Assembly (NCBI RefSeq): GCF_000373905.1
Contig: NZ_KB892705.1
Coordinates: 2,251,020-2,315,019, forward strand
Reading direction: 5' to 3'
Source of the DNA: Mycobacterium sp. 155
Lineage (GTDB): Bacteria > Actinomycetota > Actinomycetes > Mycobacteriales > Mycobacteriaceae
Length of the DNA stretch: 64,000 bases
The notes beneath the pieces were generated by a model that saw only the letters and a list, made by a program, of their open reading frames with translations, was not told the DNA's origin and made no database searches. A program made the position numbers and the translations under genes. Numbering within the stretch: the first letter of the stretch is position 1; every line of letters begins with the position of its first letter. Shown here one piece after another: positions 3,248-39,596 of this stretch.

Positions 3248-3264
3248 CTCTCTAAAACAGAGAA
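3248..3264 (+). promoter_or_regulatory. Candidate operator, copy 1 of the element-wide palindrome
   Basis: CTCTCTAAAACAGAGAA, a 16/17 match to the consensus TTCTCTAAAACAGAGAA, about 105 bp before the start codon at 3370. It is followed by an A/T-rich stretch (AATAATAG) and by GCAGGTCA, which is also found after the copy at 31953. See the finding on the repeated operator. Confidence 0.65.
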
Positions 3265-3369
3265 ATAATAGCAGGTCATAGCCACTTTCTCAATTGCGCG
3301 CCCGTCAAGGATTCTGTACCATCGATTGTAGCAAGATCCAGAACACAGCAAACACAAGGAGCACCCCCA

Positions 3370-3675
3370 ATGAGCATCACCGCATACGGCACCTGGACCA
3401 CCATCATCGACAGCTCCTCGGCTGGCTTCGCGCACTCGGTGGCCACCTCCCTGGGCAGCTTCGTCGATGACTTCGATGTCGACGCCATCATCAGCGACTA
3501 CCACGACGCCGTGGCCGCGGCGGTGCGCGCCGAGTGCGACGTGGACCTGTCCGGCAGCGAGTTCCTCGGCGAGTACCCGAAGCCCGAGGGCATCAACGAG
3601 CAGATCGCCGCCGCCGTCGAGGGCGTCGACTTCTGGGCCATCGTCCAGCGCCACGACATCAGCGGCGCCGCCTGA
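3370..3675 (+). CDS. Hypothetical acidic protein under the candidate operator
   Basis: The product has 101 residues, is acidic, and is rich in Asp, Ala and Val, with no motif I recognise. The start is supported by AAGGAG 9 nt upstream. The preceding intergenic region of about 370 bp is markedly richer in A+T and carries the repeated 17-bp palindrome, so this looks like a separately regulated gene. Its codon usage resembles that of the other element genes. Function is unknown; a small acidic anti-restriction or DNA-mimic type protein is conceivable but unsupported. Confidence 0.6.
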   Translation: MSITAYGTWTTIIDSSSAGFAHSVATSLGSFVDDFDVDAIISDYHDAVAAAVRAECDVDLSGSEFLGEYPKPEGINEQIAAAVEGVDFWAIVQRHDISGAA

Positions 3676-3789
3676 CCCACCAGCTAGGTAGCCCCGAACG
3701 GTTCCACCGCCGAGAGGCGACGGCCACGGTTCGAACCCGCGGCGGGGCACGCAAGACCACATCACCTGCACGAAACGGAGAACACCGCC

Positions 3790-4191
3790 ATGTCCGAGAC
3801 CAAGACCCGCACCGAGGCGAACCGCGCCAAGCGGCACCGCCAGAAGACCAACCGCGCCGAGCGTGATCGCATCGAGCGCGCCAAGCCGCTGGGCCTGACC
3901 CTCGACGCCCACATCACCAGCCCGCGCCTGATCGCGAACGGCAACGGCGCTTGGGAGGGCACACTGCGCGAGCTGCTCGAGCTGGACTGGGTCATCGGTG
4001 GAGTCGACCGCGCCGGCGAGGTGGTCGGCCGCATGATCGCCGACGGTCGCATCGTGGACGTACCGCGCGACGAGGACGGATTCGTGGCGGAGGAGTACGA
4101 GTACCCGATGCTCGAGCAGGTCGTGCACCTGCTCGGCTACGGCGACATCGAGGACCTGCTGGACGACCCGAACGTCGCCATCGCCGCCTGA
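3790..4191 (+). CDS. Hypothetical protein with basic N-terminus
   Basis: The 133-residue product has a strongly basic, Arg/Lys-rich N-terminus (residues 1-35) and an acidic C-terminal two-thirds containing LLELDWVIGG and a YEYPMLEQVVHLLGY segment. An AACGGAGAAC stretch lies about 10 nt before the ATG. It is the second gene of a rightward group after the operator at 3248. The basic tail suggests nucleic-acid contact, which is inference only. No family was recognised. Confidence 0.6.
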   Translation: MSETKTRTEANRAKRHRQKTNRAERDRIERAKPLGLTLDAHITSPRLIANGNGAWEGTLRELLELDWVIGGVDRAGEVVGRMIADGRIVDVPRDEDGFVAEEYEYPMLEQVVHLLGYGDIEDLLDDPNVAIAA

Positions 4192-4231
4192 CCCATCGCT
4201 CACGCGTCTCGCCCGACCCCGGAGGTTCCCC

Positions 4232-4870
4232 ATGCGCCACGGAGAGCGCACCCCCACCACCGCGTGCACCGCCATCCCGCCGGCCTATCGGATCGCCGCC
4301 GACGACGACTGGCTCACCACCGCCGAGGTCTGCGCCGAACTGGAGTGCACCCGCGCCAACGTCTCCCTGCTCGTCAAGGCCGGAAAGCTTCGGGCCGAGC
4401 GACACGGATCGTCGCCCACCTCGCCCTACCGCTTCCGCCGCAGCTGGATCGAGGCGTACAGCTCCCGTAGGACGCCGGACATGCTCACGGTGCCCGAGGC
4501 GGCCGCCGAGATCGGAGCCTGCGTGGACACTCTCTGGCGAGCCCTCAAAGAGGACCGTCTGGAGGGTGTGCGGGTCGGCTCGCGGCGGTACATCCGCCGG
4601 GACGATCTGGAGGAGTACCGGAAGTTCCGCGATACGCGCTGGGAGCGCCGCGTCGTCACCTTGCGAGAACAGCGTCGGCGAGAGGTGGATGAGCTGCATG
4701 CGGCCGGTTTCCTCGGCGTTCAGGAAGCGGCCGAGGAACTCGGTGTGCACCGCGTGACGGTGCAGAGGTGGATCACCGCGGGGATGCTGGGCAGCGAGCG
4801 GCTCGGGTGGCGGTACGGCATCCGCCCCAGGTGGATCGAAAAGTTCCGCGCCGAGCACCCGTCTCACTGA
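4232..4870 (+). CDS. Triple helix-turn-helix DNA-binding protein
   Basis: The 212-residue protein is built from three excisionase-type HTH modules in tandem: residues about 28-78 (TTAEVCAELECTRANVSLLV), 83-134 (TVPEAAAEIGACVDTLWRAL, then SRRYIRRDDLEEY) and 159-211 (GVQEAAEELGVHRVTVQRWI). The linker RRREVDELHAAGFL closely resembles RRGQEVEHLHSQGYL in the four-HTH protein at 14037, so the two are paralogues. Several DNA-reading heads in one chain suggest binding to repeated half-sites. It is followed by a convergent terminator. Its regulatory target is not known. Confidence 0.75.
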   Translation: MRHGERTPTTACTAIPPAYRIAADDDWLTTAEVCAELECTRANVSLLVKAGKLRAERHGSSPTSPYRFRRSWIEAYSSRRTPDMLTVPEAAAEIGACVDTLWRALKEDRLEGVRVGSRRYIRRDDLEEYRKFRDTRWERRVVTLREQRRREVDELHAAGFLGVQEAAEELGVHRVTVQRWITAGMLGSERLGWRYGIRPRWIEKFRAEHPSH

Positions 4871-4882
4871 CTCCGAACACGA

Positions 4883-4915
4883 AGCACCCCGCCACCGAGA
4901 AGGTGACGGGGTGCT
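4883..4915. terminator. Hairpin terminator between convergent genes
   Basis: Inverted repeat AGCACCCCGCCACC with 13 of 14 bp paired across a GAGAA loop, lying between the stop at 4870 (+) and the stop at 4934 (-). Confidence 0.8.
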
Positions 4916-4933
4916 CTGCCGTTCAGCCCCGGC

Positions 4934-7630: not shown

Positions 7631-7854
7631 CGGAGATCACCCCCGAGAGACGCCTTGTAGGCGTCCAGGTGTGGGCGACTGATCAAGATCGCGCGGCCGT
7701 CAGTCTTGGCCGCGAGGACACCGCGGCGGGCCAGGTTCCGGACATGCTGCTGGGTGCAATCAAGCTCCACGGAGGCCACGCGCGTCCCGATCCAGATTTT
7801 GCTCGATGTCACGTCCCCGCTGGTAGGAGGTGATGATTTCATTTGCTCACTCAT
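7627..7854 (-). CDS. Small helix-turn-helix regulator heading the 898-residue protein gene
   Basis: The 75-residue product contains an excisionase-type HTH: ASVELDCTQQHVRNLARRG, then an ILISRPHLDAYK wing. It overlaps the next gene by 4 nt (ATGA), so both are probably translated together, and it may autoregulate the pair from a promoter in 7855-7933. It belongs to the same small-HTH family as the genes at 2778, 31557 and 34422. Confidence 0.65.
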   Translation of the reverse strand: MSEQMKSSPPTSGDVTSSKIWIGTRVASVELDCTQQHVRNLARRGVLAAKTDGRAILISRPHLDAYKASLGGDLR

Positions 7855-7933
7855 GCCTCCAGATGTACCTGGACATGACCGGATGCGCTACCAATTCTGT
7901 TGTGCGACTGGAGGTATAGGCGGATACAGACGT

Positions 7934-7958
7934 GCCCCTGACTAATCCAGTCAGGGGC
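7934..7958. terminator. Hairpin terminator
   Basis: Perfect 10-bp inverted repeat GCCCCTGACT with an AATCC loop, 20 bp after the stop of the leftward gene ending at 7979. It separates the two leftward groups. Confidence 0.8.
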
Positions 7959-7978
7959 AGGTTGGTTTGCCGGGGCGG

Positions 7979-8523: not shown

Positions 8524-8592
8524 GCCGCGCCTTGTACACCCGCAGTGATCGGGGCCTGGTGCGCGACACGAGTTTCGGTGTCCGACGCCGCG

Positions 8593-8967: not shown

Positions 8968-9042
8968 GTCCGCAGCATGGCACCCGGCACCGACATGACG
9001 CACCTGCATTTCTGTCGGCCCCGCCGCGTACCGTCCGCCGGC

Positions 9043-9288: not shown

Positions 9289-9311
9289 CTTGGGGTGTCA
9301 GAGGTACACGG

Positions 9312-11822: not shown

Positions 11823-12251
11823 TTAAATGTTTGGATCCTCCGGCACCCAGCTGACCACTGCCCGCCCGTCGAGCTCCTCGACCAGTACGGCCAGCATCGC
11901 GTTGTGCAACCCGATCCCGCCGGGGAACCCGCGATGCACCCGGTCCAGCTGTTCCTGCGAGCGGTACCGCACCAGCGACACCACCGCGACCTCGCCGTCG
12001 CCCGCGTCGAACTCGGCGTCGAGTTCCTCCAGCTTGTCGAGGATGTCGGCGACGCGGGATGCCTTCTCTTGCAACAGGTGATCGAGCAGCGCGAACACGT
12101 CCTCCTTGATCTCCTGAGTCGAGTCGGGGGACTCCCAGTACTGCCAGGTGCGCAAGCTCACGCCGGCCAGGTCGGCGGCGGCCTGCAGGGTCAGCCCCGC
12201 GGCCTCGCGCATGGTGCGCAGGTGGGCGGAACCCAAGCTCGGGGGCGTCAT
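11823..12251 (-). CDS. XRE-family HTH regulator
   Basis: The 142-residue protein has an N-terminal Cro/CI-type HTH (LRTMREAAGLTLQAAADLAG, then SLRTWQYWE, about 11-40) and a C-terminal helical/strand domain of unknown function. The start overlaps the end of the upstream gene at 12248 by 4 nt (ATGA), so the two are cotranscribed. It is one candidate for the regulator of the element-wide palindrome or of the palindromes at 13175-13249, but nothing in the sequence proves either. Confidence 0.7.
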   Translation of the reverse strand: MTPPSLGSAHLRTMREAAGLTLQAAADLAGVSLRTWQYWESPDSTQEIKEDVFALLDHLLQEKASRVADILDKLEELDAEFDAGDGEVAVVSLVRYRSQEQLDRVHRGFPGGIGLHNAMLAVLVEELDGRAVVSWVPEDPNI

Positions 12252-18478: not shown

Positions 18479-18495
18479 TTCTCCAAAATAGAGAA
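18479..18495 (+). promoter_or_regulatory. Candidate operator, copy 2 (variant)
   Basis: TTCTCCAAAATAGAGAA, two changes from the consensus with both arms intact (extended to GATTCTC/GAGAATC). It ends 7 bp before the ATG at 18503, close enough to block initiation directly. Confidence 0.6.
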
Positions 18496-18502: not shown

Positions 18503-18847
18503 ATGATGCCGATGCTCCACGACGAAGTCTGGATCCCGTTCAGTTTGGCGGAACTCGCCGCCGACGAATCCCTCCCGTTCGATGACCCGGACGCGTACAT
18601 TCCGTACCTGATCGAGAAGTGGCCACCAGGCGGGAAGCCACACCGCGTGGAGCACTACCTGCCCGAGTTGGCCCCGCCACCTGGGCGGCGCAGGCCACCG
18701 CCCGGTGTCCACGGCTGGCTGGTGTTCCGGATGCCGCCGACGGAGCCGGAACCCGATCCGGAGGCGCCGACCATCGACTGGGACGCGATCCGAGACGCGA
18801 GGGTGGTGGACCGGCGTCGGTCGCGGAAGCGGCCGGGGACCGACTGA
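18503..18847 (+). CDS. Hypothetical acidic/proline-rich protein
   Basis: The start at 18503 (MMPMLHDEVW) is preferred over the first ATG of the frame (18401) because the operator-like palindrome lies just upstream and the extra N-terminus looks non-coding. The 114-residue product has an acidic N-terminal half (IPFSLAELAADESLPFDDPD), a Pro-rich middle and a basic C-terminus (DRRRSRKRPG). No family was recognised. With so little room between operator and ATG, the mRNA may be leaderless, which is common in mycobacteria. Confidence 0.5.
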   Translation: MMPMLHDEVWIPFSLAELAADESLPFDDPDAYIPYLIEKWPPGGKPHRVEHYLPELAPPPGRRRPPPGVHGWLVFRMPPTEPEPDPEAPTIDWDAIRDARVVDRRRSRKRPGTD

Positions 18848-19627: not shown

Positions 19628-22600
19628 GTGGATGAATTCGCGGAGGACCTGGACCTGCCAGCGCTGTCCGGGTGGATGGAGGACACCCGACAGTTCACGG
19701 CGACGGCGGAGGCGGCGTGCCGTCCGGAGGCTGTCGAGGCCCGTGCCTACGCTGCCTGTGTGACCGCTCCACATCTGGAACAGATCGTCGCTCGCCTCGC
19801 CGCGCAGACCAACCGGCCCGAAGCAACCACTCAAGCTGACATCTACTCGCTGTTGACCCAGGCCGACATCGGGCTGGGAACAGACGAGGTCGCAACGATG
19901 GAAGCACAGGTGGGTGACGGGACCCGTCGCCGGATCGACGTCGAAATCGGCCAGTGTGTCATCGAGGTGAAGAAGAACCTGCACGCCGCTGACCTGGCTG
20001 CCGCCGAAGAACAACTCGGCGGATACGTTGCGCAGCGGACTCAGGCGCTCGGCCGGTACGTCGGAATTCTCACCGACGGCAGCGAGTGGCGCCTGTACCA
20101 CCTCAACGACGATGTGCTGGAGCTGATCTCGACCCACACTCTCAGTGCGACCAATCCGAACGCCGATGAGCTCCTGGTCTGGTTGGAGTCGGTGATGTCG
20201 ACACTGACCGCCATCAGTCCCATTCCAGAGGAGATCGAGAGCCGCCTCGGTGCCCAGTCCCCGGCGCACAAACTGGACGCGGCCGAGCTGCAAGGAATCT
20301 ACGAGGCCAACAAGGACAACAAGGAGGTTCAGCTCAAGCGCCAGCTGTGGGCGAAGCTGCTCCGCGCTGCGTTGGGCGAGGACTTCGTCGACAGCGAAGA
20401 GCTGTTCATCAACCACACCCTGCTGGTGACCACCGCTGAGCTGATCGCCCACGCGGTACTCGGCTTCGACGTTGGGCCGACCGGCACTCTGACTGCGCAG
20501 CAGATCACCAGCGGATCCGAGTTCTCCAACGCACGCATCCGTGGTGTAGTGGAGGCCGACTTCTTCGACTGGGTTACCGACACCGAGGCCGGTGAATCGT
20601 TCGTCCGCAACCTCGGCCGACGGGTGTCCCGCTTCGACTGGAACGCCGTCGAGCACGACGTACTCAAGATCCTCTATCAGTCTGTCATCACCAAGGAGAC
20701 GCGCGAAAGCCTCGGCGAGTACTACACGCCGGACTGGCTGGCCGATCGCATGGTAGAAGCGTTCGTCTCCGACTCCTTGAACTCGGTGGTGGCCGACCCC
20801 AGTTGCGGCAGCGGCACATTCCTGTTCCACGCGGTACGGGGCTACTTGGCTGCGGCCGTCGCCGCTGGAACCGACATCGACGAGGCGGTGCAGCAGGCAA
20901 CCCACCATGTGGTCGGCATCGACGTGCACCCCGTGGCCGTCACTCTGGCCCGCGTCACCTATCTGCTGGCGCTGGGGCGGGAGAACATCACCTCAGCCGG
21001 CCGAAAGGACCTGACGGTCCCGGTCTACCTCGGTGACTCGATTCAGTGGCGGCAAGAAGACGACATCTTCAGCAGCGAGGCCGTTCGCGTACGGACCGAC
21101 GAGGCCGACCTCGCCGGCGGAGGCGGGCTGTTCACGCTCGACTTGCTGTTTCCCCGCTCGGTGCTCAAGAACGCCACCGAGTTCGACTACCTGGTCTCCG
21201 AGATGGCCGATCGGGCGCTCGTTACCGAACCTGCGAACGCGGGCAAGGCGATCTTGCCTGTCCTCAAACGCCGCGGGATCGCCGCGGATAGCAAGGACGG
21301 GAAGATGCTCGCCGAGACCTTCTCGAACCTGTGCACGCTGAGAGCACAAGGACGCAACCACATCTGGGGCTACTACGTCCGGAATCTTATCCGCCCACTG
21401 TGGCTGGCCGAACCAGAGAACCGAGTCGACGTGCTCATCGGGAATCCGCCGTGGCTCCGCTACAACAAGATGACCGGACCGATGCAGGTGCAGTACCGCG
21501 CTCTCTCCCGGGACCGGAACCTGCTCACCGGTGCACTCGGGGCCTCAGGGCGTGACCTCGCCACACTGTTCGTCGTTCGTGCCATCGAGCTATACCTCCG
21601 CCGGGGTGGTGAATTCGCGTTCGTCATGCCACATGGGGTGATGACTCGGAGCCCCCACACAGGCTTCCGCAGCGGTGACTGGCGCGGCGACACCGGCAAC
21701 CACCTCACCGTGAAGTTTGAAGAGAGCTGGGATATGAAGGGAGCCGACGCAGCAATCGGATTCCCGATCCCGTGCTGCGTGGTGCACGGAAAACTGTCCG
21801 AGTCACCCGGAAAGATGCCCGTCACTACACGCGCGTGGGCGGGGAGACTGACGCACCCCGACGTGCCGTGGTCAATCGCAGCGGAGAAGATCACAACAGG
21901 ACCCTCCACGGTGCGCGCGCTCGACCATGGTGCGGTTGTTGTCGAGAGTCCGTACAAAGAGCGCTTCCGAAACGGGGCGATCCTCTACCCTCGCTCGCTC
22001 ATGTTCGTCGTCGACGCACCGGCAGGCCCCCTCGGAGCCGGTGCCGGCCGCCGGGCGGTCACCTCCTTCCGGAACAACTTGGAGAAGGAGCCGTGGAAGT
22101 CGTGCGACTCGCTGAAGGCGAACGTCGAGAACCGCTTCATTCGGCCGGTATATCTCGGCGAGCAGGTGCTCCCGTTCCGCACGACAGCGCCCCGTGAAGC
22201 CGTACTCCCGATCACCGACACCGCGATCCTGTCCGCCGACGAACTGGAACTCCACCAGGGCCTCAACAGCTGGTGGTCGGAGGCGGAGGAGGTGTGGGAG
22301 GAGCACCGTCCCGCGCGCGAAACACTGCCGCTACGGGACCGGATGAACTTCCACAATCAGCTCTCGTCGCAGTTGCCGGTCACTGCAACCCGGGTCGTGT
22401 ACACGGCGTCGGGCAACGCAATCGCCGCGGCGATCGTCCGCGACTCAAGGGCACTGATCGAGCACAAGCTGTACTGGGCGCCGACGATGATCGAAGCCGA
22501 GGCTCACTACCTGGCGGCGATCCTCAACTCCGCACCCGTACTGGCGAATGTGCAGCCGCTCCAAGCGGTGGGACTGTTCGGGCCGCGCGACTTTGACAAG

Positions 22601-24316: not shown

Positions 24317-25063
24317 CTAACCGGTTGCGGCCCCGGGCATCTCGTCCCACAGCTGCCCGTCGAGTTCGCGGCCGAGCGCCTTTGGGGTACGGCCACCCCA
24401 CTGCTTGAAGAAGAACGGCACCTCGGCTTCGGTGCAGGCGTCGCGGATGCCACGGACCCAGTTAACGTCGACGGGCCGGTAGCGGGGGCCGGACTCACCG
24501 CCCGCGATGACCCAGCCGATGCCGGCGAGGTCAATGCCGTCCAGCGGTCCGATCAGCGGCTCGCAGGACAGGAACCGCACCGCGGCCGGTACTTCGCGGA
24601 GGTGGTCGACCCGGCTGAGCACGTCCGCGTTCTCCACCGACACACCCATCCAGAGGTTGTCGGGCCAGTCCAGCTTGTCGGCGACGCGGCGAAGGCGCAG
24701 GCTGCGCTTGGTCAGCACCTGGTAGGTGTGCTGCGGGGTGTCACGGCAGACGTCGAACACGTCGCGGATGAAGTCGATCGGCACCTTGGCGTGGAAGAGG
24801 TCCGACATCGAGTTGACGAACACCACCCGGGAATTGCGCCAGCGGCGCGGTTCGTCGAGGGCTTGCGGATGCACGGTGACGCCGAAGCCGGGACCGGAGG
24901 TACGGGGGTCGCCGTCGACCTGGTACTTCGCCGAACCCATCGCCTTGAGTCGCTTGGCCAGGGTCATCGCGTAGCAGTGGTCGCACCCGGCGGAGATGCG
25001 ATCGCACCCGGTGACGGGGTTCCAGGTGGCCTCTGTCCACTCGATCGCCGAACGATCCGCCAT
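24317..25063 (-). CDS. Three-Cys-motif protein, DUF5131 (phage Gp37/Gp68-like)
   Basis: The 248-residue protein begins with the family signature: IEWTEATWNPVTGC, then Cys20, Cys27 and Cys30 in GCDRISAGCDHCYA. Further family features are NSMSDLFH, WMGVSVEN and the C-terminal FFFKQWGG. The three cysteines could hold a metal or Fe-S centre, as suggested by similarity to radical-SAM-like and photolyase-like folds; this is inference. It has a good ribosome binding site and lies tail-to-tail with its presumed partner tcmP, 18 bp apart. The opposite strands mean the pair is not one operon here. Confidence 0.85.
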   Translation of the reverse strand: MADRSAIEWTEATWNPVTGCDRISAGCDHCYAMTLAKRLKAMGSAKYQVDGDPRTSGPGFGVTVHPQALDEPRRWRNSRVVFVNSMSDLFHAKVPIDFIRDVFDVCRDTPQHTYQVLTKRSLRLRRVADKLDWPDNLWMGVSVENADVLSRVDHLREVPAAVRFLSCEPLIGPLDGIDLAGIGWVIAGGESGPRYRPVDVNWVRGIRDACTEAEVPFFFKQWGGRTPKALGRELDGQLWDEMPGAATG

Positions 25064-27526: not shown

Positions 27527-30500
27527 CTAGGCGACGTTGACGTTGCCGATGTTCGGCACCGACTGCAGGATGCCGGCTGCGGGTGCCGGGTTCACGGCGA
27601 CCTTCGTCACCACACGGAACCGGGTGCCGTCGAAAGCGATGTCGTCCGAGGCCTTGACGACCTTGAGGGCGTCCTCCACGTAGAGATCGCGTTCGGATGG
27701 CTTGCCTCCGCGGCGGGTGGAACCGAGGACCTTCTTCGCCTCGCCCTGGGTGAGCCCAGCCGGGCCTTCCCCGACGATCTTCGCGATGATCCGCCGCGCG
27801 CAGGCCTCCACTCGCTCGCGATCCGCCGCGCTCGCTACACGGATGCCGTACTTCCGCAAAACCTCCGCGTCACCGGCCTCGTCCTGAGCCGCGTGATCCT
27901 TGGCGGCCTCGCAGTAGGCGCGGCTGCGGCGGGCGTGCTCCATGATCACGCCCGTGTGCTCCCAGCACTCCTCGGTCACCACCAAGCTGCCGTGGTAGGC
28001 CGCGACCAGGCAGGCGAGGCGCACCCGCACCATCAGCAGGTGCGAGTCCATGTCGCTGACGCCGACCAGCGTGTCGATCGAGCCGTCCTCCTCGTTGTCG
28101 TCCATCGCGAGCTGGATCGACTCGCAGAGAACGAAGACAGTCTCGTGTCCAAGGGCCAGCGACGGCGCCGGCTGCGGACCCGGGTTGGCGAGGACGGGCA
28201 GGCCCACCTTCCGGAACGGATCCGTCACCGCGGAGTGGATGTTGCGCTGCACGTAGCCGACGCCCTCCGACGCGAAGTACGGCCCAGACTTCTTGGGCTG
28301 CAGCCCCGAACTCATGAACAAGTTGTACGGGCTCACGGCCCCGCAGATGGCCAGCTTGGGGCCGGCGTTCCGCGACGAGTCACCGATGTCGGCCCGCGCC
28401 CACGCCGAGCAGACCGTCTGTAGGGATGTGTTCTGCGGACCGGTGGAACGTGCGATGAAGGCACTGAGCTCGTCCTCGTGGACGTGGATCGAGAGGTGAT
28501 CGTTGGGCTTGAACCGCTTCTGCCCCTTGATCTGGACGCCGGTCTCCTCGTTGAACACGGGCTCACTTCCGCCGTACAGGTCGACGATGACCTGGCCGGA
28601 ACCGAGCCGGTGGGTGAGGTTGACATCGGCTCCGGTCAACGGGTACTCCCACGTCCCCTCAGCGAAGTTGCGCCGGACCACGCCGAGGGTGGCCCAGTCG
28701 GTCGGCGACAGGTCCGCACGCCCGGTCTGCGTCTTGCCGGTGCCGGCGCGTCCGACCAGCACCACGAAGGTCGACAACGACACACCGGGATACGGGCCGA
28801 GGTCGGTGGGCAGCCTGTTCCCGAAGCGGATCAGGTCCATCAGGTAGAGCCCGATGGGGTGGACGTTGCGCTCGGACCGTGCTTTGTGGAACAGCGCCCG
28901 GGTGCGATCCGAATAATCCATCACGCCCGCGATGATCTCGGGTGTGCTGTGGAACCCGAGCGGGTACAGGGTTTTGCTCGTGGGATCGAAGCCCTTGGCC
29001 TTGACCCGCTCCCAGATCTCCTTCTTGCCGGCTGGGATGCTGGCGTCGATGGCGGCTTCCGGCGACTGGTCCACCTTGTTCTCCGACGGGGCACTCGTTC
29101 CGGCCGGAGTAGCCGTCTGCGTCGTGGTCTCCGTACCGGTAGCCGCCGCGGGCGCCGAAGCGGCCGGGACGCCCCGCATCATCGGTGGTGCCCCGCGCAC
29201 CTGCCCCTCCCCGGCGTCGAAGAAGATCTCGCCGTTTGCCTTGGCCTGCTCGCGGCGTTCAGCAGCCGCTTCCCGGAGCTTGGCCGCCACCGCGCGGAGT
29301 TCACCGGCGGTGCCGTGGTCGCCGCGCTCGTCGGCGCGTTCAGCGGCCTCGTCGAACGACTCCGCGTCGAGGCCGTGCAGCTCGGCGCGATCCTCGCCGA
29401 TGTTGATGTTGACTGCGGCGCAGGCCTCCTTGAACGTCTCACCCGCGAGCACCATCCGCAGCTGTGCGCGCGACAGGTGCTCCCCGTCGAGTGCCTCCTT
29501 GGCGATCATGGTGCCGGACCACACGTGGGCGCCGCAGCCGTACTCGGAGCAGCCTTCGTGCAACGTCAGCGACTTGTCGGTCGACGCGCCGAGGTAGTGG
29601 TACTCGGGGCAGCCGCACCCGCTGTACCGGCCGGTGAACACGATCTGGCCGAGGCCGTCGAGCCACTGCTCCCAGGGAACGTCGTCGATCAGCTGATCGA
29701 GCTCCGAGCTGCGGGCGTTGCGCTCCACCCGCTCCCGGGGCTGCACGGGCGTCAGGATGCCGTGCAGCGGAGCCAGCTCCGGCGGACAGGGCACGCTCCG
29801 ATCGAACAGCCACATCGGCGCGACCTGCAGCGCCGTGAGTTCGACGGACGGATCGAGGGCACGGTTGACGAGAACGGCGTACTGCACACCAGGTGCCACC
29901 GCCAGCTGCGATCCCGGTGCCATCGCGTACCGGCCCGCGGCCAGGACATCGATCACGCCGCCGTTCGGAAGGTCGATGCCGATGGTGCCGCTGTGCGGCA
30001 ACGTCGCCGGGTCGATTCCCTCGGGCAGCAGCAGCCAGGTGTGGGTGCCGCCCCGCTTGGTGTTGGGCTTGCCCGAGTCCTCGTCGCCCTCGACGGTCGC
30101 GAGGATGTCGGACGCGTACTGCGACTTCGCCGGAAGTACGAGCGGGACGATTCCGGCCGCTTCCACCGCTGCGGTGGCCGCGAAGTCCTCGGCGTCGAAC
30201 GCGATCATCCGACTGTTGACGCCCATGACCGCGGCGAGGTTCCCGCCGGCCACCCGATGCGCGTACGCGGCGTCCGCGGTGAGCCCCGGGTGCGACGGGA
30301 ACCCCGGAGGGGGTTGCCGCTTGCCGCCCCCACCCATCGGGATCAGGGTGGCGCCGACCGCGCACATCCGCACGATGGTGTCGTACATGGCCTGCTGCGG
30401 CGAGACGGTCTCCCCTGGTGCGACCGGCGGCGCGGTCGGCGCCGGACCAGCCGGGGGCACGACCCCGGTCAACGGCTTCGGCGTGAACTTGCGCTTGCGG

Positions 30501-30697
30501 GGCTTCATCCCCCAGCCGACGCTGCCGTCACCCTTCGGGCGCTCGAGACCACGACGCGCCATCTCGGCGACCACGTGGGCGTGGGCGACGCCGAGTTCAC
30601 CGTCGGGCAACGTGATGTCGTCGATGGCGAGTCCGACGTCGCTAGCCCAGCCGGCCGCCACCTCGTCGGTCCAGTGGCGCTCGGAGTTCGGGGTCAT
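27527..30697 (-). CDS. Replication protein: bifunctional primase-polymerase and helicase
   Basis: The 1056-residue protein has an N-terminal prim-pol region (about 100-290) with the acidic catalytic pattern IAFDAEDFAA (about 164) and GTHTWLLLPEG, a Cys-containing patch (about 360-395), and a C-terminal P-loop ATPase with Walker A GRAGTGKT (about 647) followed by VHEDELSAFIARSTG in the Walker B region. Prim-pol plus helicase in one chain is the replication initiator type of several AICEs and plasmids. It would prime and unwind the excised element at the inverted-repeat origin just downstream. It overlaps the small upstream gene by 4 nt. The low-complexity Ala/Thr stretch near 500-560 is probably a linker. 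Confidence 0.85.
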   Translation of the reverse strand: MTPNSERHWTDEVAAGWASDVGLAIDDITLPDGELGVAHAHVVAEMARRGLERPKGDGSVGWGMKPRKRKFTPKPLTGVVPPAGPAPTAPPVAPGETVSPQQAMYDTIVRMCAVGATLIPMGGGGKRQPPPGFPSHPGLTADAAYAHRVAGGNLAAVMGVNSRMIAFDAEDFAATAAVEAAGIVPLVLPAKSQYASDILATVEGDEDSGKPNTKRGGTHTWLLLPEGIDPATLPHSGTIGIDLPNGGVIDVLAAGRYAMAPGSQLAVAPGVQYAVLVNRALDPSVELTALQVAPMWLFDRSVPCPPELAPLHGILTPVQPRERVERNARSSELDQLIDDVPWEQWLDGLGQIVFTGRYSGCGCPEYHYLGASTDKSLTLHEGCSEYGCGAHVWSGTMIAKEALDGEHLSRAQLRMVLAGETFKEACAAVNINIGEDRAELHGLDAESFDEAAERADERGDHGTAGELRAVAAKLREAAAERREQAKANGEIFFDAGEGQVRGAPPMMRGVPAASAPAAATGTETTTQTATPAGTSAPSENKVDQSPEAAIDASIPAGKKEIWERVKAKGFDPTSKTLYPLGFHSTPEIIAGVMDYSDRTRALFHKARSERNVHPIGLYLMDLIRFGNRLPTDLGPYPGVSLSTFVVLVGRAGTGKTQTGRADLSPTDWATLGVVRRNFAEGTWEYPLTGADVNLTHRLGSGQVIVDLYGGSEPVFNEETGVQIKGQKRFKPNDHLSIHVHEDELSAFIARSTGPQNTSLQTVCSAWARADIGDSSRNAGPKLAICGAVSPYNLFMSSGLQPKKSGPYFASEGVGYVQRNIHSAVTDPFRKVGLPVLANPGPQPAPSLALGHETVFVLCESIQLAMDDNEEDGSIDTLVGVSDMDSHLLMVRVRLACLVAAYHGSLVVTEECWEHTGVIMEHARRSRAYCEAAKDHAAQDEAGDAEVLRKYGIRVASAADRERVEACARRIIAKIVGEGPAGLTQGEAKKVLGSTRRGGKPSERDLYVEDALKVVKASDDIAFDGTRFRVVTKVAVNPAPAAGILQSVPNIGNVNVA

Positions 30698-31556: not shown

Positions 31557-31880
31557 TCAGGCCGGTGTACCGGCCAGGGCACCGTGCAGCGGCTCCCAGC
31601 CCGCCGGGGCCGGCACGGCGCGGTCGAACAGCCACTTCGGACGAGCCATGATCACCTCGGCGAGCCGCTCGATGACAGTGGTGGAGTTCGCCGCGAGATC
31701 CGTCACCGGAGCGGAGGCGACCGGCGACTTAGCCTTGTAGGCGTCCACCGCTTCCTGGGTGGTGCGGTACTGCCGGGCCACCCGGAACCCCTTCAACTCC
31801 TCGCGCTGGATCATCCTGCGCACGGTGGTGGAGCACACGCCGAGCTGCTCGCCGGCCTCCGCGGTGTTCAGGTAGGTCAT
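31557..31880 (-). CDS. Excisionase-like HTH protein under two candidate operators
   Basis: The 107-residue protein has an N-terminal excisionase/AlpA-type HTH (NTAEAGEQLGVCSTTVRRMI, then YRTTQEAVDAYKAK). The C-terminal segment WLFDRAVPAPAGWEPLHGAL resembles the piece MWLFDRSVPCPPELAPLHGI in the replication protein, a hint that this gene holds a duplicated fragment of rep. Two copies of the 17-bp palindrome lie 73 and 191 bp upstream, with a possible extended -10 (TGCTACAAC on the minus strand) in between. It may be the recombination directionality factor or a regulator. Confidence 0.7.
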   Translation of the reverse strand: MTYLNTAEAGEQLGVCSTTVRRMIQREELKGFRVARQYRTTQEAVDAYKAKSPVASAPVTDLAANSTTVIERLAEVIMARPKWLFDRAVPAPAGWEPLHGALAGTPA

Positions 31881-31952: not shown

Positions 31953-31969
31953 TTCTCTAAAACAGAGAC
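31953..31969 (+). promoter_or_regulatory. Candidate operator, copy 3
   Basis: TTCTCTAAAACAGAGAC, one mismatch at the end. It is followed within 10 nt by GCAGGTCA, the same downstream octamer as copy 1. It lies in the promoter region of the leftward HTH gene starting at 31880. Confidence 0.65.
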
Positions 31970-32070: not shown

Positions 32071-32087
32071 TTCTCTGCTTTAGAGAA
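32071..32087 (-). promoter_or_regulatory. Candidate operator, copy 4 (opposite orientation)
   Basis: On the minus strand this reads TTCTCTAAAGCAGAGAA, with full 6-bp arms and one change in the spacer. It faces copy 3 with starts 118 bp apart in the 278-bp gap between 31880 and 32159, an arrangement that would allow looping. No convincing gene is seen in this gap. Confidence 0.65.
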
Positions 32088-33994: not shown

Positions 33995-34422
33995 CGCCGT
34001 GCCTCCCGTCGAGCGCGCCACGCGTGCAGCAGCCGCTTCCACCACGGTGCGCGGGCCGTGTACTGCGCAGGTCCCTGGTATCCGTCGCGACTCATGCCCG
34101 CCACCTCACTCACGCCGCGCAGGTGCGCGAACTCCGACACGATCGCCCGCCAGCAGCGAGCCACCGTCATTTCGACGGACATCACCTCGACGCGGGACAA
34201 CTGGCCCCACGCCTCCATCGCGCCGCCGGTCAGCAGCTCGAACGCGAGGACTTCGTGCATCGCCTTCTCCTCCGCGTACGCGGCCGCCGTCGCCGCGGCG
34301 AACGCACCGGCCACCAGCACCATGGCGTCCCTGTTCGGCAGGTCCGGCGGCAGGCCGGCGGCGGCGATCCGGGTGCCGGCGGTGCGCCAGAGCGCCGTCA
34401 CGGCGGGGGTCAAGGCGGCCAT
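33991..34422 (-). CDS. Hypothetical protein of the overlapping operon
   Basis: The ATG at 34422 overlaps the stop of the HTH gene. The 143-residue product has an Ala-rich central helix (MVLVAGAFAAATAAAYAEEK), followed by a basic C-terminus (WWKRLLHAWRARREARR) that could contact membrane or nucleic acid. No family was recognised. Confidence 0.55.
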   Translation of the reverse strand: MAALTPAVTALWRTAGTRIAAAGLPPDLPNRDAMVLVAGAFAAATAAAYAEEKAMHEVLAFELLTGGAMEAWGQLSRVEVMSVEMTVARCWRAIVSEFAHLRGVSEVAGMSRDGYQGPAQYTARAPWWKRLLHAWRARREARR

Positions 34423-34601
34423 CACGCGTCCCCCTTCAGTGCGTCCTCGCGGCGGATGCGAAGCGTCTTGCCCGATCGCACCACGGGCACGGCGCCGGCC
34501 TTGATCCGGCGGCGCGCGGTCTCCGTCGAGATACGCCACAGCGCGGCGTACTCGGCGACGGTGAGCAGCTCCGGCGGCTCAATCTTCTCGGTCTCGTCCA
34601 C
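34422..34601 (-). CDS. Small HTH regulator heading the leftward operon
   Basis: The GTG at 34601 is preferred over the GTG at 34628 because GGAAGGGAAGAGG directly precedes it; the product is then 59 residues. The sequence LLTVAEYAALWRISTETARRR, followed by VVRSGKTLRIRREDAL, is a typical excisionase/AlpA HTH with wing. It heads five coupled genes down to 33144, and two further genes (33045-32159) follow. Operator copy 5 lies about 130 bp upstream in the divergent promoter region shared with the transfer operon. Confidence 0.68.
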   Translation of the reverse strand: MDETEKIEPPELLTVAEYAALWRISTETARRRIKAGAVPVVRSGKTLRIRREDALKGDA

Positions 34602-34728
34602 GTCCCTCTTCCCTTCCGAAAACTTCACTACACTTGTTGTAGCAAAGTTTTATTGGCATTCAATTGACTGCCACTGACCGTCACCGTAGACCGCTTCAGC
34701 GCCTCTGTCGAGCCATTCCTGAGAGCGG

Positions 34729-34745
34729 TTCTCTAAAACAGAGAA
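34729..34745 (+). promoter_or_regulatory. Candidate operator, copy 5 (exact consensus)
   Basis: TTCTCTAAAACAGAGAA, the exact consensus, in the divergent intergenic region between the leftward operon (start about 34601) and the rightward transfer operon (start 34876). One bound regulator here could control both directions. Confidence 0.7.
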
Positions 34746-34875
34746 TAGGGGCAAATATTCTCAGAAACGCTGGTACCAGCGGCTATACGGCAGGAGCCGG
34801 GCTCATGTGCAGGATCGTGCAGGCGACCCGGAAATCCATTCCGAGAATGTCTTGGAATTGCTGTACAACAGGTGC

Positions 34876-35742
34876 ATGAACCAAATTCGCTTCACAGCAG
34901 CAACGTTCCTTACCGCCACGATCGCGGCCTCCTGCGCGGCCGCTCCGGCCGCCGCCGACCCCACCGGCGCGTGCGCCACCCCGTCCCCCGAACTGACCCA
35001 CTTCTGCAGCCAGCTCGATCAGATGCAGCAGCTGCACAGCCCGCCGGTGCCGACCACCACTGCACCCGGCACCAGCGGTGGCGAGACTCTCTACGCCGGG
35101 CATCCGCTCTGGCACTACCTGGTGCTCGGAGCGGTGGTGGCCTTGGTGATCGCCGCGGTGGTCAAGCTGGCGGGCTCCGCTGTCGACGACGCGGAGAAGA
35201 CCGCAGCGGAGCAGGCCGCCGAGCTTGACCGCGGCCGACGCATCGCACAGGACGCCGGCACCGAGCACGCGGAGAGGTCCCCGGAGGACCTGCGGCGCTA
35301 CGCCGACTTCGGGTGGGCGGTGCCCTGGCAGCAGGGCACCGCGTTCGGCAACCTCGTCACCCGCGACGGCGACACTAGCCGCGTGTACGCCGCGTGGGCG
35401 GAGGCATGCCAGCTCGCACGCCTCGGTCACTGGGATGAGGCAGGGACGTTCACCCCCGCCGCGGCGGTGGTCAACGTCAACGGCTACAGCGACGACGACA
35501 CCGGGGACTTGGAGCTGGCGGTTAACACCGCCGACTACACCGTCGGCGCGCGGGAGTTGAACCGCGTGCTCGAGCACCTGGTGCGCACCGCGCGCGTCGA
35601 AACCGCGAGCGACTTCACCCGCGACGCCGTGCGGGACTGGCACGTAACCCGGCTCAGCATGATCCCGAAGCAGCAGCAGGCCGCACCCGCCCCGGAACCG
35701 GAAGCGTCCGTGCCCGATCCCGCCGCCGGCTGGGAGTGGTGA
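34876..35742 (+). CDS. Exported/membrane-anchored partner of the FtsK-like translocase
   Basis: The start at 34876 gives a clear signal sequence (QIRFTAATFLTATIAASCAA, with a possible cut after APAAA). After a short extracellular part with two cysteines comes one membrane helix (WHYLVLGAVVALVIAAVVKL, about 77-97), then a cytoplasmic alpha/beta domain of about 170 residues. It overlaps the translocase gene by 4 nt. Because that translocase has no obvious membrane helix of its own, this protein may be its membrane anchor. No family was recognised. Confidence 0.7.
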   Translation: MNQIRFTAATFLTATIAASCAAAPAAADPTGACATPSPELTHFCSQLDQMQQLHSPPVPTTTAPGTSGGETLYAGHPLWHYLVLGAVVALVIAAVVKLAGSAVDDAEKTAAEQAAELDRGRRIAQDAGTEHAERSPEDLRRYADFGWAVPWQQGTAFGNLVTRDGDTSRVYAAWAEACQLARLGHWDEAGTFTPAAAVVNVNGYSDDDTGDLELAVNTADYTVGARELNRVLEHLVRTARVETASDFTRDAVRDWHVTRLSMIPKQQQAAPAPEPEASVPDPAAGWEW

Positions 35743-37793
35743 CGGTGGCTGACATCGACGCGCTCCTCGGCCGCAGCGGTGCGGCTCGCGCCGCGCGCCC
35801 GGCTCCCGAGCCGGCGCAGAAGAAGGCAAAGGCGAAGGCCGGACCGCGTCTGCACGTGGCGGATGAGACCGAGACCGACGGGGAGACCGTTGCACCGACA
35901 GGTCCGTCCGCCGCCGCAGCGAAGGCCGCGCAGCAGGCCGCCATCACCAGTGCGGTCGATGAGCTGGCCGCGTTGTGGCGGCAGATCGAGGCCGGCGCAC
36001 AGTGCCCTGAACCGCAGCGGGTCGACGCGGACGCCACCGCCGAGGAGTCACCGGAGCGGGTGGCGCGACTGTGGACCGCTCGATTCGAGCGGGAGGATTG
36101 GAGGCGACATCTGTTCGGCTGCAACGCCCCCGCCCTCGCACGAGTGGACGGCCTCGGAGTAGCGATCAAGGCTGAGATCGGTCCCGACATGGACACGTAC
36201 GCGGCGATCGCCACGTTCCAGCAGGCGGCGCTGAACATGGGCGCCGGCCGATACGAGGGGAAGCCACTCCCCGGTGTTGGACCCCGCGGCGGGCAGCTGG
36301 TTTTGCTGTGGCGCAGCGTGGTCGGAGTCGATCCGGCGACCGCGTTCCGAGCGGTGAACCACAACGCCTACCTCATCTACGCGGACCTGAATCAGCGCCG
36401 CGAAGCACTGTGGTTCAACGCCGGACTCGCGGTCAAGAAGATCGACCGCCGCTACGCGCAGAAGCCGAAGCAGCCGACCGTCTACCGCTACGAGTTCCCG
36501 CAGATCATCGAGTGCCTCGCCGACACCGGCCGCGGCCCCGGCTTCGTCGTGGAGATGCACCGGGAGCAAGCCCGCGAAGACTTCGAAGCCGCGCTACCGA
36601 AACTACGGGGGCTGCTCCGTTGCGACCTGAAACTGATCGAGCGCAAGCCCGGCCTCGTCGAGATCCAACTGCTTCACCGCGCGAAGGCGAACTGGCCCGC
36701 ACAGACGCCGCTCTCCCCGTCGCAGCTGTGGCGTCCCCGCAGCAAGGCTGAGGCCCTCCTCGCCGCGCGCGACGGCATCCTCGTCCCTGTCGGCGTGACG
36801 CAGGAGGGACGCCCGCTGATGCTCGACCTCCGCCGTCGGCCGCATCTTCTGCTCACCGGAACCAGCGGCGCGGGCAAAAGCACCCTCTTCCGGCTGATGC
36901 TCCGCGCTCTGCAACTCCAGCTTGGTGTCGGAGGCACGCTGATCCTCGCCGACGGCAAGGGCGCCGACATGGTGGCCGTCTACGGCGAGGGCATCGGGCA
37001 GAACTTGAGCGTGGAGGACGCCTCGATTCACCGGGCGATCGCGTACCTGCACGACGAGTTGCTCCGCCGCAAGCGCATCTACAAGAAGCTCGTCGCGCGC
37101 CGGCTCCCGGACAAGTTCCCGTTGTTGGTGCTGTGTTTCGACGAGTTCGGGGCGTGGGCTGGCCGCGGCTTGGCGACGGGTTCGTCGAAGCGCCGCAAGG
37201 CCGGCGTCGAGGCCGCGATGGAAAAGCTGCGGTTCATCCTCCGGCAGGGCCGCTCGCTCGGAATCCATGTGCTGCTGAGCACCCAGGACGTCACGGTCGA
37301 GTCGGGCATCAACACCGCGCTGCTGAGCGTGGTGTCTAGCCGCATCGTCGTCGGGCAGGTCCAGGGAGGATCCGGTTCGGCGATGGACAAGCTGTTCTCT
37401 GCGTCGGAACGCCCACGCGTCGCGGAAGCCGGGGCGCACATCCGCCCCGGAGACATGGGCATGGGTGTGATGGTCGACGAAGACGGCGAGGTCGTCGCGT
37501 TCAAAGCGTTCTACAACGGCGGCCAGGCCGCGGAGATTCTCGACGCTGCGGTGGCCGCGGGCGGCCGGGCAAGCCGGTTCGCGTGGAAGTTCCCCGATGA
37601 CGGTGGCGAGTGGCTGCTCCGCACCTGCGCTGCGTTCGAGGACACCGATCCTGTCGACGACATCCCCACCATCGCTCTCGAAGACGAGCACGGCCGCTAC
37701 ATCGCTGAGCACGGCCGCTACGACGAGGGCAACGCCGAGGAGCACGACCCCGGCACGCCCGACGACAACGCCGCACACTCCGGCGCTTTCTGA
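35739..37793 (+). CDS. FtsK/SpoIIIE-type DNA translocase, TraB/TraSA-like
   Basis: The 684-residue protein (GTG at 35739 in a GTGA overlap; GTG at 35736 is also possible) has a charged N-terminal region, a middle domain and a C-terminal FtsK-type motor with Walker A GTSGAGKS (about 374-381), Walker B LLVLCFDEFG (about 460-469) and an LLSTQDVTVESGINTALLS sensor segment. In actinomycete plasmids and AICEs a single such ATPase moves double-stranded DNA between cells through a hexameric pore, recognising short clt repeats. The neighbouring membrane protein and the GTCCGGAC repeats at 40577-40626 fit that model. Chromosomal FtsK is excluded by its size and missing N-terminal membrane part. Confidence 0.88.
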   Translation: MTVADIDALLGRSGAARAARPAPEPAQKKAKAKAGPRLHVADETETDGETVAPTGPSAAAAKAAQQAAITSAVDELAALWRQIEAGAQCPEPQRVDADATAEESPERVARLWTARFEREDWRRHLFGCNAPALARVDGLGVAIKAEIGPDMDTYAAIATFQQAALNMGAGRYEGKPLPGVGPRGGQLVLLWRSVVGVDPATAFRAVNHNAYLIYADLNQRREALWFNAGLAVKKIDRRYAQKPKQPTVYRYEFPQIIECLADTGRGPGFVVEMHREQAREDFEAALPKLRGLLRCDLKLIERKPGLVEIQLLHRAKANWPAQTPLSPSQLWRPRSKAEALLAARDGILVPVGVTQEGRPLMLDLRRRPHLLLTGTSGAGKSTLFRLMLRALQLQLGVGGTLILADGKGADMVAVYGEGIGQNLSVEDASIHRAIAYLHDELLRRKRIYKKLVARRLPDKFPLLVLCFDEFGAWAGRGLATGSSKRRKAGVEAAMEKLRFILRQGRSLGIHVLLSTQDVTVESGINTALLSVVSSRIVVGQVQGGSGSAMDKLFSASERPRVAEAGAHIRPGDMGMGVMVDEDGEVVAFKAFYNGGQAAEILDAAVAAGGRASRFAWKFPDDGGEWLLRTCAAFEDTDPVDDIPTIALEDEHGRYIAEHGRYDEGNAEEHDPGTPDDNAAHSGAF

Positions 37794-37821
37794 CCTGAAC
37801 ACCTTCCCGAAGGGAGACCTC

Positions 37822-38640
37822 ATGACCCCGAACACCGCCCACGCCGCCATCGAGTCGGCAGCCGCCACGATCGTCACCGCGCACGTCACCGCGCTCGGTC
37901 CGCTGGTGCAGATCGCCGACCGTAGCGTCGCTCATCCACCGACCATCGACCGCGCTCTCACCGCGGTGTTGCATCTGAACTCCGCTGGCCCGCAGCTGGA
38001 CCACGCCGTGAACGGACTGCTCCGGGAGCTGGTCGCCGCCGGGGTGTCCAGGGCGAAGCTCTGCCGGCTGCTGGCTCTGCGCACCTCCGCGCTGACCGCC
38101 CGTCTGACTGCGACTGCACCCACCGCGGTGACCGTCCCCGATATCCAACCCGGCAGCTACGGGCTGCGGGACAAGGTGAGCCAGCGCGCCGCGCGGGAGT
38201 CTCTGATCACCACGGCCGATGCGGTGCGTGCGGCGTACCTGGATGCGCTGCGCCCCATGGCCACGGTGAGCCAGGGCACCGTGGTCGAGGCGGCCACCGT
38301 CGACGCTGCGGTGGAGGCCGTGGTCGGTCTCCGAGTCGCGCGGCGGTCGATGGAGACCGCGGTCGACCAGGTGCTCGCCGCTCTCGTGCTCGGCGGTGTG
38401 AAGCGCATGGCGCTGGCGGGGCTGCTCGGATGCAGCCCCGCGACCTTGCAGCGCCGGCTCACCCTGCAACCGCTGGCACACGCGAGGTGGGTGGACCTCG
38501 TAGACGACGGGGATGGCGTCTGGACCGTGCAGCGAGTCGATGTCGGTAAGTACTCGCCGGCGCCCGAGGCCGCCGACTTCGACGAGTCCCACTTCGACAT
38601 CGAAGCCGCGATGAACGCGGCCGCTGGATACGCCCGATGA
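37822..38640 (+). CDS. HTH protein with internal duplication
   Basis: The start at 37822 follows AAGGGAGA. The 272-residue protein has two related halves: LNSAGPQLDHAVNGLLREL with LVAAGVSRAKLCRLLALRT in the first, and LRVARRSMETAVDQVLAAL with LVLGGVKRMALAGLLGCSP in the second. Each half is a long helix followed by an HTH. The next gene resembles one half. It is downstream of the translocase and may bind element DNA during transfer. Confidence 0.6.
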   Translation: MTPNTAHAAIESAAATIVTAHVTALGPLVQIADRSVAHPPTIDRALTAVLHLNSAGPQLDHAVNGLLRELVAAGVSRAKLCRLLALRTSALTARLTATAPTAVTVPDIQPGSYGLRDKVSQRAARESLITTADAVRAAYLDALRPMATVSQGTVVEAATVDAAVEAVVGLRVARRSMETAVDQVLAALVLGGVKRMALAGLLGCSPATLQRRLTLQPLAHARWVDLVDDGDGVWTVQRVDVGKYSPAPEAADFDESHFDIEAAMNAAAGYAR

Positions 38641-38954
38641 GCACCGCCGTCCCACCGCTCCAGGTGGCGGCTCGCGATGTCGTGGTCGGGTACCGGCGCG
38701 CCCTGTTCCCACTCCGCGACCTCACCAGGTCGGAGTATCTGAACGGCGTCAAGGTCGCCGCGTCGGTCGGCGATGTCATGCACGAGCTGGGCACCGTGAC
38801 CGACCCGGAGCGGACCACGCCCACCGTCGACACCCTGGAGCGTGCACTGGTCCTGGAGATCATCGCGGCCGGGATCCCCGCATCCACTGTGGCCCGACGG
38901 TGCCGCATCGCCCCGGCGACGGTCGCGCGGTGGATCGCGGAGGACTTCGGATGA
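38637..38954 (+). CDS. Single-HTH protein of the transfer operon
   Basis: The 105-residue protein overlaps the previous gene by 4 nt (ATGA). Its C-terminal half (ALVLEIIAAGIPASTVARRC, then RIAPATVARWIAED) matches the half-unit of the duplicated protein before it. No enzymatic domain is present. A DNA-binding role is inferred. Confidence 0.58.
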   Translation: MSTAVPPLQVAARDVVVGYRRALFPLRDLTRSEYLNGVKVAASVGDVMHELGTVTDPERTTPTVDTLERALVLEIIAAGIPASTVARRCRIAPATVARWIAEDFG

Positions 38955-39337
38955 CTCGCCGTCGCGCCCCTACCGCGCAGAACCGGGTAATTGCCAAGGA
39001 GCTGATGCGAGAGATTCCGAGGCGGGAGTTGCAGGAGTTCACCGATGCGATCGCGGCGATGGAAGCCCTCGCCGACGCGGACCCCGAAGACGTCACCGCG
39101 GAGGCCGCCTTGGACGCTCTCGCCGCGCTTCGGTCACACAGGCCGCTGCTGGACGCTCGGCTCTGGCATCTGCTCGGGCTGGCGGTGCTCGAAGGCACCC
39201 GTCCGGCGTACGTGGCGTCGAACGCGAAGGTGCCGTCGCGCACCTTGACTCGGCACCTCGCGGAGAGCCCCGCGGCGTGGTGCGGACGGGTCCTGGTGGC
39301 CGATCCCCGGCGCGCGTACGGCTGGCGCACGGAATAG
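38951..39337 (+). CDS. HTH-like hypothetical protein
   Basis: The ATG at 38951 overlaps the previous stop by 4 nt (128 residues). The N-terminus is basic; the C-terminal LGLAVLEGTRPAYVASNAKV, followed by SRTLTRHLAESP, fits the same long-helix plus HTH plan as its neighbours, more diverged. It ends this operon segment before the terminator at 39442. Confidence 0.55.
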   Translation: MTRRRAPTAQNRVIAKELMREIPRRELQEFTDAIAAMEALADADPEDVTAEAALDALAALRSHRPLLDARLWHLLGLAVLEGTRPAYVASNAKVPSRTLTRHLAESPAAWCGRVLVADPRRAYGWRTE

Positions 39338-39441
39338 TGCCCCAACGCATGTGCGCGTGAAGATTCCACAACATCCTGCGAATCCTGATTCTCGTTCCGA
39401 GACTGTCGCACAACGCGATTCACAAACAATCCCAGAAAGCA

Positions 39442-39475
39442 AGGCCCCCGTTGTTGCACCAGGCAGCGGGGGCCT
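39442..39475 (+). terminator. Hairpin terminator
   Basis: 9-bp inverted repeat AGGCCCCCG/CGGGGGCCT with a 16-nt loop in the 375-bp gap after 39337. It separates the translocase operon from the next promoter. Confidence 0.6.
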
Positions 39476-39579
39476 ACTCATGCATCCCCGAACTCTGCTG
39501 TAGCGCAACGCGATAGACGCGGGCTCTTTGCCTATCAATTTTGAGCCGGATCTGTGCCCGCACCCACGTCTACCTGCGG

Positions 39580-39596
39580 TTCTCTAAAACAGAGAC
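39580..39596 (+). promoter_or_regulatory. Candidate operator, copy 6
   Basis: TTCTCTAAAACAGAGAC, about 117 bp before the ATG at 39713, in an A/T-richer promoter segment of the 39338-39712 gap. Nothing else gene-like is seen in that gap. Confidence 0.65.

Follow-up and report, generated by a model that had tools for sequence, protein, structure and literature searches.

A 17-bp interrupted palindrome with the consensus TTCTCTAAAACAGAGAA recurs at promoters of a mobile element integrated in the genome of Mycobacterium sp. 155, and probably serves as the DNA operator for a symmetric (dimeric) repressor of the XRE type that governs the element as a whole. The stretch analysed (64,000 nucleotides of contig NZ_KB892705.1, positions 2,251,020 to 2,315,019; hereafter the window, with contig positions given as C1) covers the right-hand part of this element, which is about 64.5 kb long, adjoins a gene named by eye as nrdE-like and extends left beyond the window. 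An XRE-type dimer would read palindromic operators dispersed over the element and, in the case of the window's element, would thereby control replication, transfer, a helix-turn-helix (HTH_17)-primase operon, a DUF2637 gene and four small-gene operons.

Six copies lie in the window (3248..3264, 18479..18495, 31953..31969, 32071..32087, 34729..34745 and 39580..39596), each with 0-2 mismatches to the consensus, where an earlier reading of the DNA from its letters alone (the sequence-only reading) had placed them. That reading took the arms of the copy at 18479 to be intact, but one arm is in fact changed (TTCTCC...AGAGAA). It was correct that the chromosomal part of the window holds no copy, and no copy arose when the window was shuffled 100 times with its dinucleotides preserved. 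A search of the whole genome (4.61 Mb, two contigs) allowing up to three mismatches returned 11 matches, including three extra copies no more than 11 kb left of the window (C1:2240295-, 2246645- and 2249608+). The remaining two, at 3.736 Mb, have 1 and 3 mismatches and fall inside the coding sequence of a gene that by eye resembles a cytosine methyltransferase gene, and they are not promoter sites. We also ran a matrix scan, using a matrix built from 90 exact-arm sites of several elements, the window's element among them. Across C1:2192000-2315019 it found nine sites scoring 19.3-36.4, with the next-best score at 5.1; these scores are partly circular, as the training sites include the sites scored, though the gap to the remaining scores is not. 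The sole other high score in the scanned chromosome stretches is the match at 3.736 Mb (23.1). An element-wide operator in the window's element is well supported, and the regulon, with nine sites of which three are outside the window on its left, exceeds what had been claimed.

The sites stand ahead of genes central to a mobile element. Left of the window the targets are an HTH_17-AAA_25 (replication) operon, a 158-amino-acid (aa) operon and a 191-aa operon. Within it, the copy at 3248 is 106 bp ahead of the start of a small open reading frame (3370..3675, + strand), and the copy at 18479 precedes a conserved gene for a protein of about 100 aa with no Pfam match (18503..18847, +). Two copies, at 31953 and 32071, lie about 74 and about 192 bp ahead of an excisionase-like HTH_17 gene (31557..31880, -; Pfam), downstream of which is the gene for a primase/polymerase-like protein of 1056 aa (27527..30697, -). 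The copy at 34729 lies between a leftward HTH_17 operon (34422..34628, -; Pfam) and the rightward FtsK (transfer) operon, whose first gene (34807..35742, +) has no Pfam match above cut-off and is followed by the gene for an FtsK/SpoIIIE-like translocase (35745..37793, +; Pfam). Finally, the copy at 39580 is ahead of an HTH-HTH-DUF2637 operon, which codes for two tandem proteins of about 109 aa (39713..40371, +; weak HTH_23 matches below the curated cut-off) and a DUF2637 membrane protein with a C-terminal segment that looks HTH-like by eye (40699..41766, +). The proposal that an operator precedes the replication, transfer and small HTH genes is thus borne out, and the arrangement is kept at orthologous promoters of a related element: in genome G949 sites also occur at the FtsK operon (two), the HTH operon and the ~100-aa gene. 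In G798 a site precedes an HTH_17 gene that itself precedes an AAA_25 protein fragment, and relatives of the ~100-aa gene in G949, G899 and G754 have the same operator arrangement as the gene at 18503, the core ending 8 bp from the start codon in all four elements. The ~100-aa family comprises nine database proteins including itself, some of them named from Mycolicibacterium, Mycobacteroides and Rhodococcus; no relatives were found in plasmids, and in G899 the gene is divergent from an XRE gene.

Outside such elements the site is rare. The sequence-only reading would have been undone by an equal density of the motif elsewhere, but the exact 15-bp core occurs in just one of 396 other genomes of an order-wide sample, that of Tsukamurella spumae (two of 397 with our own). 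It is present in 2 of 16 Tsukamurella genomes and in 12 of 396 genomes of the genus (own included), six of all these genomes having 7-19 copies; when up to two mismatches are allowed, 42 of 301 family genomes give a match, usually a single one, and of these 42 our own, G168, G070 and G148 were examined further. The carriers are small elements related to that of the window and, in addition, much larger (giant) elements. The giant of G168 has 30 sites scoring at least 15 within about 330 kb, and codes for EccB, EccD, an EccC-like protein, a subtilase beside eccD and PPE (ESX proteins), as well as for a DNA polymerase A, an RNA ligase and a Prim-Pol protein; relatives of its ESX, polymerase, ligase and Prim-Pol proteins are found in Mycolicibacterium canariasense (G972). 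Its proteins match those of T. tyrosinosolvens NCTC13231 (100% over 98% for the EccC-like protein), for which public records assign parts of the giant to sequences of 264 and 302 kb that bear the label plasmid; in G168 the giant-element DNA sits inside a 4.95-Mb contig.

Wider scans returned at least 118 stretches from the genome collection, most of them filtered by composition and site count only; among those listed, L098 (M. canariasense), L122 (T. spumae) and L154 (the G949 element, by gene content) are informative. Pattern scans of viral contigs gave at least 120 and 15 stretches, mostly from A/T-rich genomes as judged by a composition filter, with L172 and L462 resembling window-type elements. 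Three giant plasmids, pS2b, pCBMA213_1 and that of M. chimaera AH16, gave no site in the 50 kb scanned of each (best score 1.0), which implies that the regulon is not general to ESX plasmids. The 40 kb scanned of Gordonia phage Aleemily, whose genes include an XRE relative, likewise hold no site, and in the M. abscessus prophage prophiGD51-2 a single weak one (13.9) falls within the first 12 kb, the remainder being free of sites. This prophage (MW584195.1; L413, L415), assigned to cluster MabP in the part of PMC8092301 available, has a left arm with FtsK, an HTH-membrane protein, XRE and a primase/polymerase, resembling the window's element, joined to phage structural genes.

The position of the sites points to an action on promoter DNA. 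In 1.40 Mb of element and flanking sequence, 19% of which is intergenic according to a simple gene caller, 116 of 120 sites scoring at least 15 are intergenic, orthologous promoters of related giants being counted separately. We then considered 53 one-directional promoters of the giants, with near-identical ones removed and each oriented to its nearest gene. TA is found at the upstream edge of the site in 40 of the 53 and at the downstream edge in 11, and TTG lies 16-18 bp before the TA in 19, versus 1 in the mirror control. The promoter form is TTG-N17-TANTCT, and the asymmetry between the edges indicates that both the -10 hexamer and the expected start point fall within the site; a protein bound to an operator overlapping the -10 hexamer would block RNA polymerase. 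The centre of the site reads AAA or TTT relative to the gene in a ratio of 31:30, one undecided, in 62 giant promoters, and of 4:8 in 12 small-element promoters. Coverage of the -10 together with a centre that is unoriented to the gene is explained neither by an RNA hairpin nor by an oriented stoperator of the kind found in phage L5, and the site is thus best read as a symmetric DNA operator bound by a dimer. A separate observation is that 23 of the 30 sites of G168 (C3:2522433-2852080) have a centre reading TTT on the + strand, regardless of gene direction (P 0.005), and that on C33 of M. canariasense the polarity is the same in 8/8 sites. In addition, TGTC occurs about 12 nt before the site's TA in 22 of the 62 one-directional giant promoters, 17 of which have no TTG at 16-18 bp (for example L288:4100-4165 and L305:17445-17495), perhaps marking a second promoter class or a co-regulator.

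What might read such an operator? An alignment (A1, six rows) seeded with XRE genes from site-bearing elements defines a clade of XRE genes found in G168, G972, G663, G768, G738, G706, G820 and G899, so that the giants and G899 code on the element for a regulator with an HTH_3/HTH_31 domain. A site scoring at least 15 lies within 150 bp of 10 of 14 clade XRE promoters, compared with 105 of 1823 genes in the background (tandem pairs were counted once, and some start codons were placed according to the profile match). Since the site is present at the promoters of the XRE genes themselves in related elements, an XRE protein is the probable regulator, and the clade protein is likely the repressor of the giants, where it would be autoregulated. 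Across the genus, 10 of 396 genomes have the clade (E 1e-17), and sites are present in 7 of the 10 (P 3e-10); the association persists without the seed-supplying genomes (4/7, P 4e-6) and when the sibling G663 is also left out (3/6, P 1e-4). Paired XRE genes 2.5-3.5 kb apart occur in G768, with a strong site at both, and in G738 and G706, with one strong and one weak; such pairs would allow a mutual-repression switch. Controllers of the C.BclI/C.AhdI type are small XRE proteins that regulate their own gene, exerting local control of one operon, unlike the dispersed regulon seen here. The closest solved relatives of the clade by sequence are restriction-modification controllers of this type, C.BclI (PDB 2b5a) and C.AhdI (PDB 1y7y), and its solved relatives also include P22 C2 and SinR. 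L454 appeared to offer a further XRE gene with a site, but was rejected as the apparent site is the XRE coding sequence itself.

Several observations weigh against an XRE repressor as the general reader. The alignment was seeded from site-bearing elements, and orthologues recur in the promoter counts, although about 7/10 independent promoters still gives P about 2e-7. Four of the 14 XRE promoters have no strong site (two weak at 8.2, two none), and the XRE-positive genomes G641, G784 and G787 have neither a site near the XRE gene nor an exact core. Moreover, the window's genome has no clade member in the search at E 1e-17, its best match scoring 45.6 bits with an in-frame stop where true members score 74-140 bits, and G949, G754, G798, G881 and G070 also have none. 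In the small elements the promoter geometry differs as well, with none of 12 promoters having TA at the site's upstream edge, and with the core starting 44-46 nt before TTGNNN-N17-TANNNT at two promoters here and one in G899; a core at this distance ahead of the -35 TTG fits activation as well as repression.

The window's element does code for an XRE protein (HTH_31, Aca2/YdiL-like by Pfam; 11823..12251, -), the best regulator candidate on the element and one of those named by the sequence-only reading. Its kind is probably right, given the sites at related XRE promoters, but its own promoter has no site, and it belongs to another subfamily than the A1 clade. The gene is found in 3 of 396 genus genomes (own included), all of them site-positive (P 2e-5; 2/2 without our own, P 7e-4), though any cargo gene of these elements would associate alike; the only relatives at E 1e-15 in the 395 other genus genomes are at G881 C1:3131477 and G706 C1:4348145. 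Over the predicted recognition helix (residues 28-42), 12 of 15 residues are invariant in nine sequences including its own. On these sequence comparisons the protein is a possible but rather doubtful reader in the window's element. No relatives were found in the phage collection and viral contigs; a Mycobacteroides abscessus protein 79% identical to it is on 339 contigs.

If the geometry of the small elements is taken at face value, the site in window-type elements could be an activator site and not a repressor operator, a reading we regard as unlikely. In its favour are the near-equal spacing from core to promoter of 44-46 nt, as in the copy at 3248, where the distance from the first base of the 15-bp core to the start of a TTG-N17-TACCAT promoter is 45 nt, and the similar block that can be made out by eye between core and promoter. 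However, a core only 8 bp from the start codon of the ~100-aa gene fits repression, and in the giants the site covers the -10. A GCAGGTCAGACCCACTTTCT-like block was seen by eye after the operator at three promoters of the window's element (window 3248 and L010 14646 and 17609), and a weaker one at G899 3576504.

It is also improbable, though conceivable for window-type elements, that the reader is a different small HTH protein whose own gene the site controls, candidates being the HTH_17 proteins (one of 62 aa left of the window and those at 31557 and 34422, the latter two already proposed by the sequence-only reading) and the ~109-aa proteins at 39713 and 40042. Four target promoters drive HTH genes, including those of both HTH_17 proteins proposed, and the site recurs at the 39713-type promoter in G949 and at the HTH_17-replication promoter in G798. 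Among HTH_17-like genes, a site lies no more than 150 bp upstream in 4 of 20 in small-element stretches; in giant stretches, which share the operator, the count is 0/12, and the HTH_17 proteins are therefore improbable as the common reader. The 109-aa family gives a single weak match in giant stretches, in G168 and away from any site, and its G899 relatives have no upstream site. The DUF2637 protein was rejected as the common reader, its C-terminal segment not being conserved.

An RNA hairpin in the transcript leader, acting post-transcriptionally, is highly improbable: RNA of the site would pair into a stem of 6 bp around a loop of 5 nt, and sites are often near start codons, but the loop would be AAA or TTT with equal frequency relative to the gene in the giants, if less evenly in the small elements, and since the upstream site edge in the giants is the -10 hexamer, transcripts would contain only part of the hairpin. 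A family of A/T-rich intergenic palindromes that arose by chance, to which the scattered matches in family genomes and the two in our own coding sequence might point, is refuted by the order-wide rarity of the exact core, with a background near zero, together with its clustering by genus and element (up to 30 copies) and its absence from shuffles.

Returning to the operator read by an XRE-type repressor, its presence in both size classes allows a more speculative idea, which we think has little likelihood, namely that small AICE-like elements, which lack an XRE gene of the clade through loss or from the outset, keep the operators of the giant ESX-bearing elements. If so, a giant's repressor in the same cell would silence the small elements and its removal would wake them, which would amount to cross-immunity, or to a satellite-helper relation, among the conjugative elements of Mycobacteriales. 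Such cross-talk would have a simple sequence-level sign in an operator common to both size classes.

Dispersed operators of this kind have parallels. The IncP plasmid RK2 is under global regulation by KorA and KorB, as described in the available parts of PMC11790492 and PMC4889941, with 12 KorB sites according to a title in the reference list of the former. The likeness lies in element-coded repressors, dispersed operators and control of core mobile-element functions; however, KorB is in those parts a ParB-type CTP clamp, whereas the likely reader here is an XRE protein and one operator serves two element size classes in Mycobacteriales. Mycobacteriophage L5 similarly has many repressor sites over a mobile mycobacterial genome, in promoters and intergenic regions, but each of its sites, as far as the consulted text of PMC9283540 goes, is an asymmetric 13-bp sequence that follows the direction of transcription and binds a monomer, unlike the palindromic sites here, which in the giants are unoriented to the gene. 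SinR of Bacillus subtilis, an XRE protein, binds a GTTCTYT half-site, best as an inverted repeat (PMC3163267, in part), which fits the GTTCTCT half-site of several copies here; it is, though, a chromosomal biofilm regulator of another host with several half-sites per promoter. The window's element shares integrase, FtsK-type translocase and replication genes with actinomycete integrative and conjugative elements (AICEs), of which few reports exist in Mycobacteriaceae (PMC8190616, in part), and the giants share with ICEMyc226 the presence of type VII secretion system genes on a giant mobile element; the available sections of PMC7478629 and PMC8190616 describe no operator or element-wide regulon. 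The operator strings were not found in the literature searched, and no operator was found in literature on repressors of type VII secretion or conjugative plasmids or on Tsukamurella ESX/XRE. In the available text of a paper on a giant M. avium plasmid the words operator, repressor and palindrom* are absent, as is palindrom* (operator not searched) from that of the ICEMyc226 and Mycolicibacterium mobilome papers. The site offers a handle on how giant ESX-bearing and AICE-like mycobacterial elements stay quiet and when they move, with a decision between residence and transfer that may depend on repressor binding; as the site is only 17 bp long, the repressor family is probable and the target promoters are listed, binding and de-repression can be tested directly.

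The borders of the window's element may be marked by a 15-bp repeat at C1:2232182 and 2296681 (the latter at window 45662..45676), the candidate attL and attR, from which its size is estimated; the repeat is at the 3' end of the nrdE-like gene, which is next to a tyrosine integrase gene at the right end of the element (44124..45494, -; PF00589). In G634 just 25 bases, located where the nrdE-like gene has its 3' end, separate the left flank from the right, and the 7 kb from 2225118 to 2232181 are likewise missing; in G633, G538 and G637 the distances between the closest flank matches are 0.14, 1 and 6.7 kb respectively. We called 87 genes in the element and scanned 36 of them against Pfam, finding an integrase, an FtsK-type translocase, AAA_25, HTH_17, a small serine recombinase and an N6-methyltransferase, and no phage structural family among the 36. 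The 1056-aa protein itself has no Pfam match, but shares 46% identity with the Prim-Pol protein of G168 across 404 aa, and its Tsukamurella relatives carry a primase/polymerase annotation. The element thus has the AICE feature set of a PF00589 integrase, an FtsK_SpoIIIE translocase and an AAA_25 protein with a primase/polymerase-like protein, which, with no phage structural family among the genes scanned, fits an integrated AICE-like element.

Its cargo includes, by eye, ArsR-, ArsC- and Acr3-like genes. A PAPS-reductase/DUF3440 protein (448-1716), an Eco57I/MmeI-like methyltransferase (19628-22837) and a DUF5131 protein (24317-25063) are possible defence or DNA-modification cargo. The gene at 2101 looks ParB-like by eye, yet has no Pfam match. 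Elsewhere, L011:9232-16418 holds a gene that by eye is cytosine-methyltransferase-like, beside Vsr-like and HSP90-type ATPase-like genes and two further genes, and is likely a defence island.

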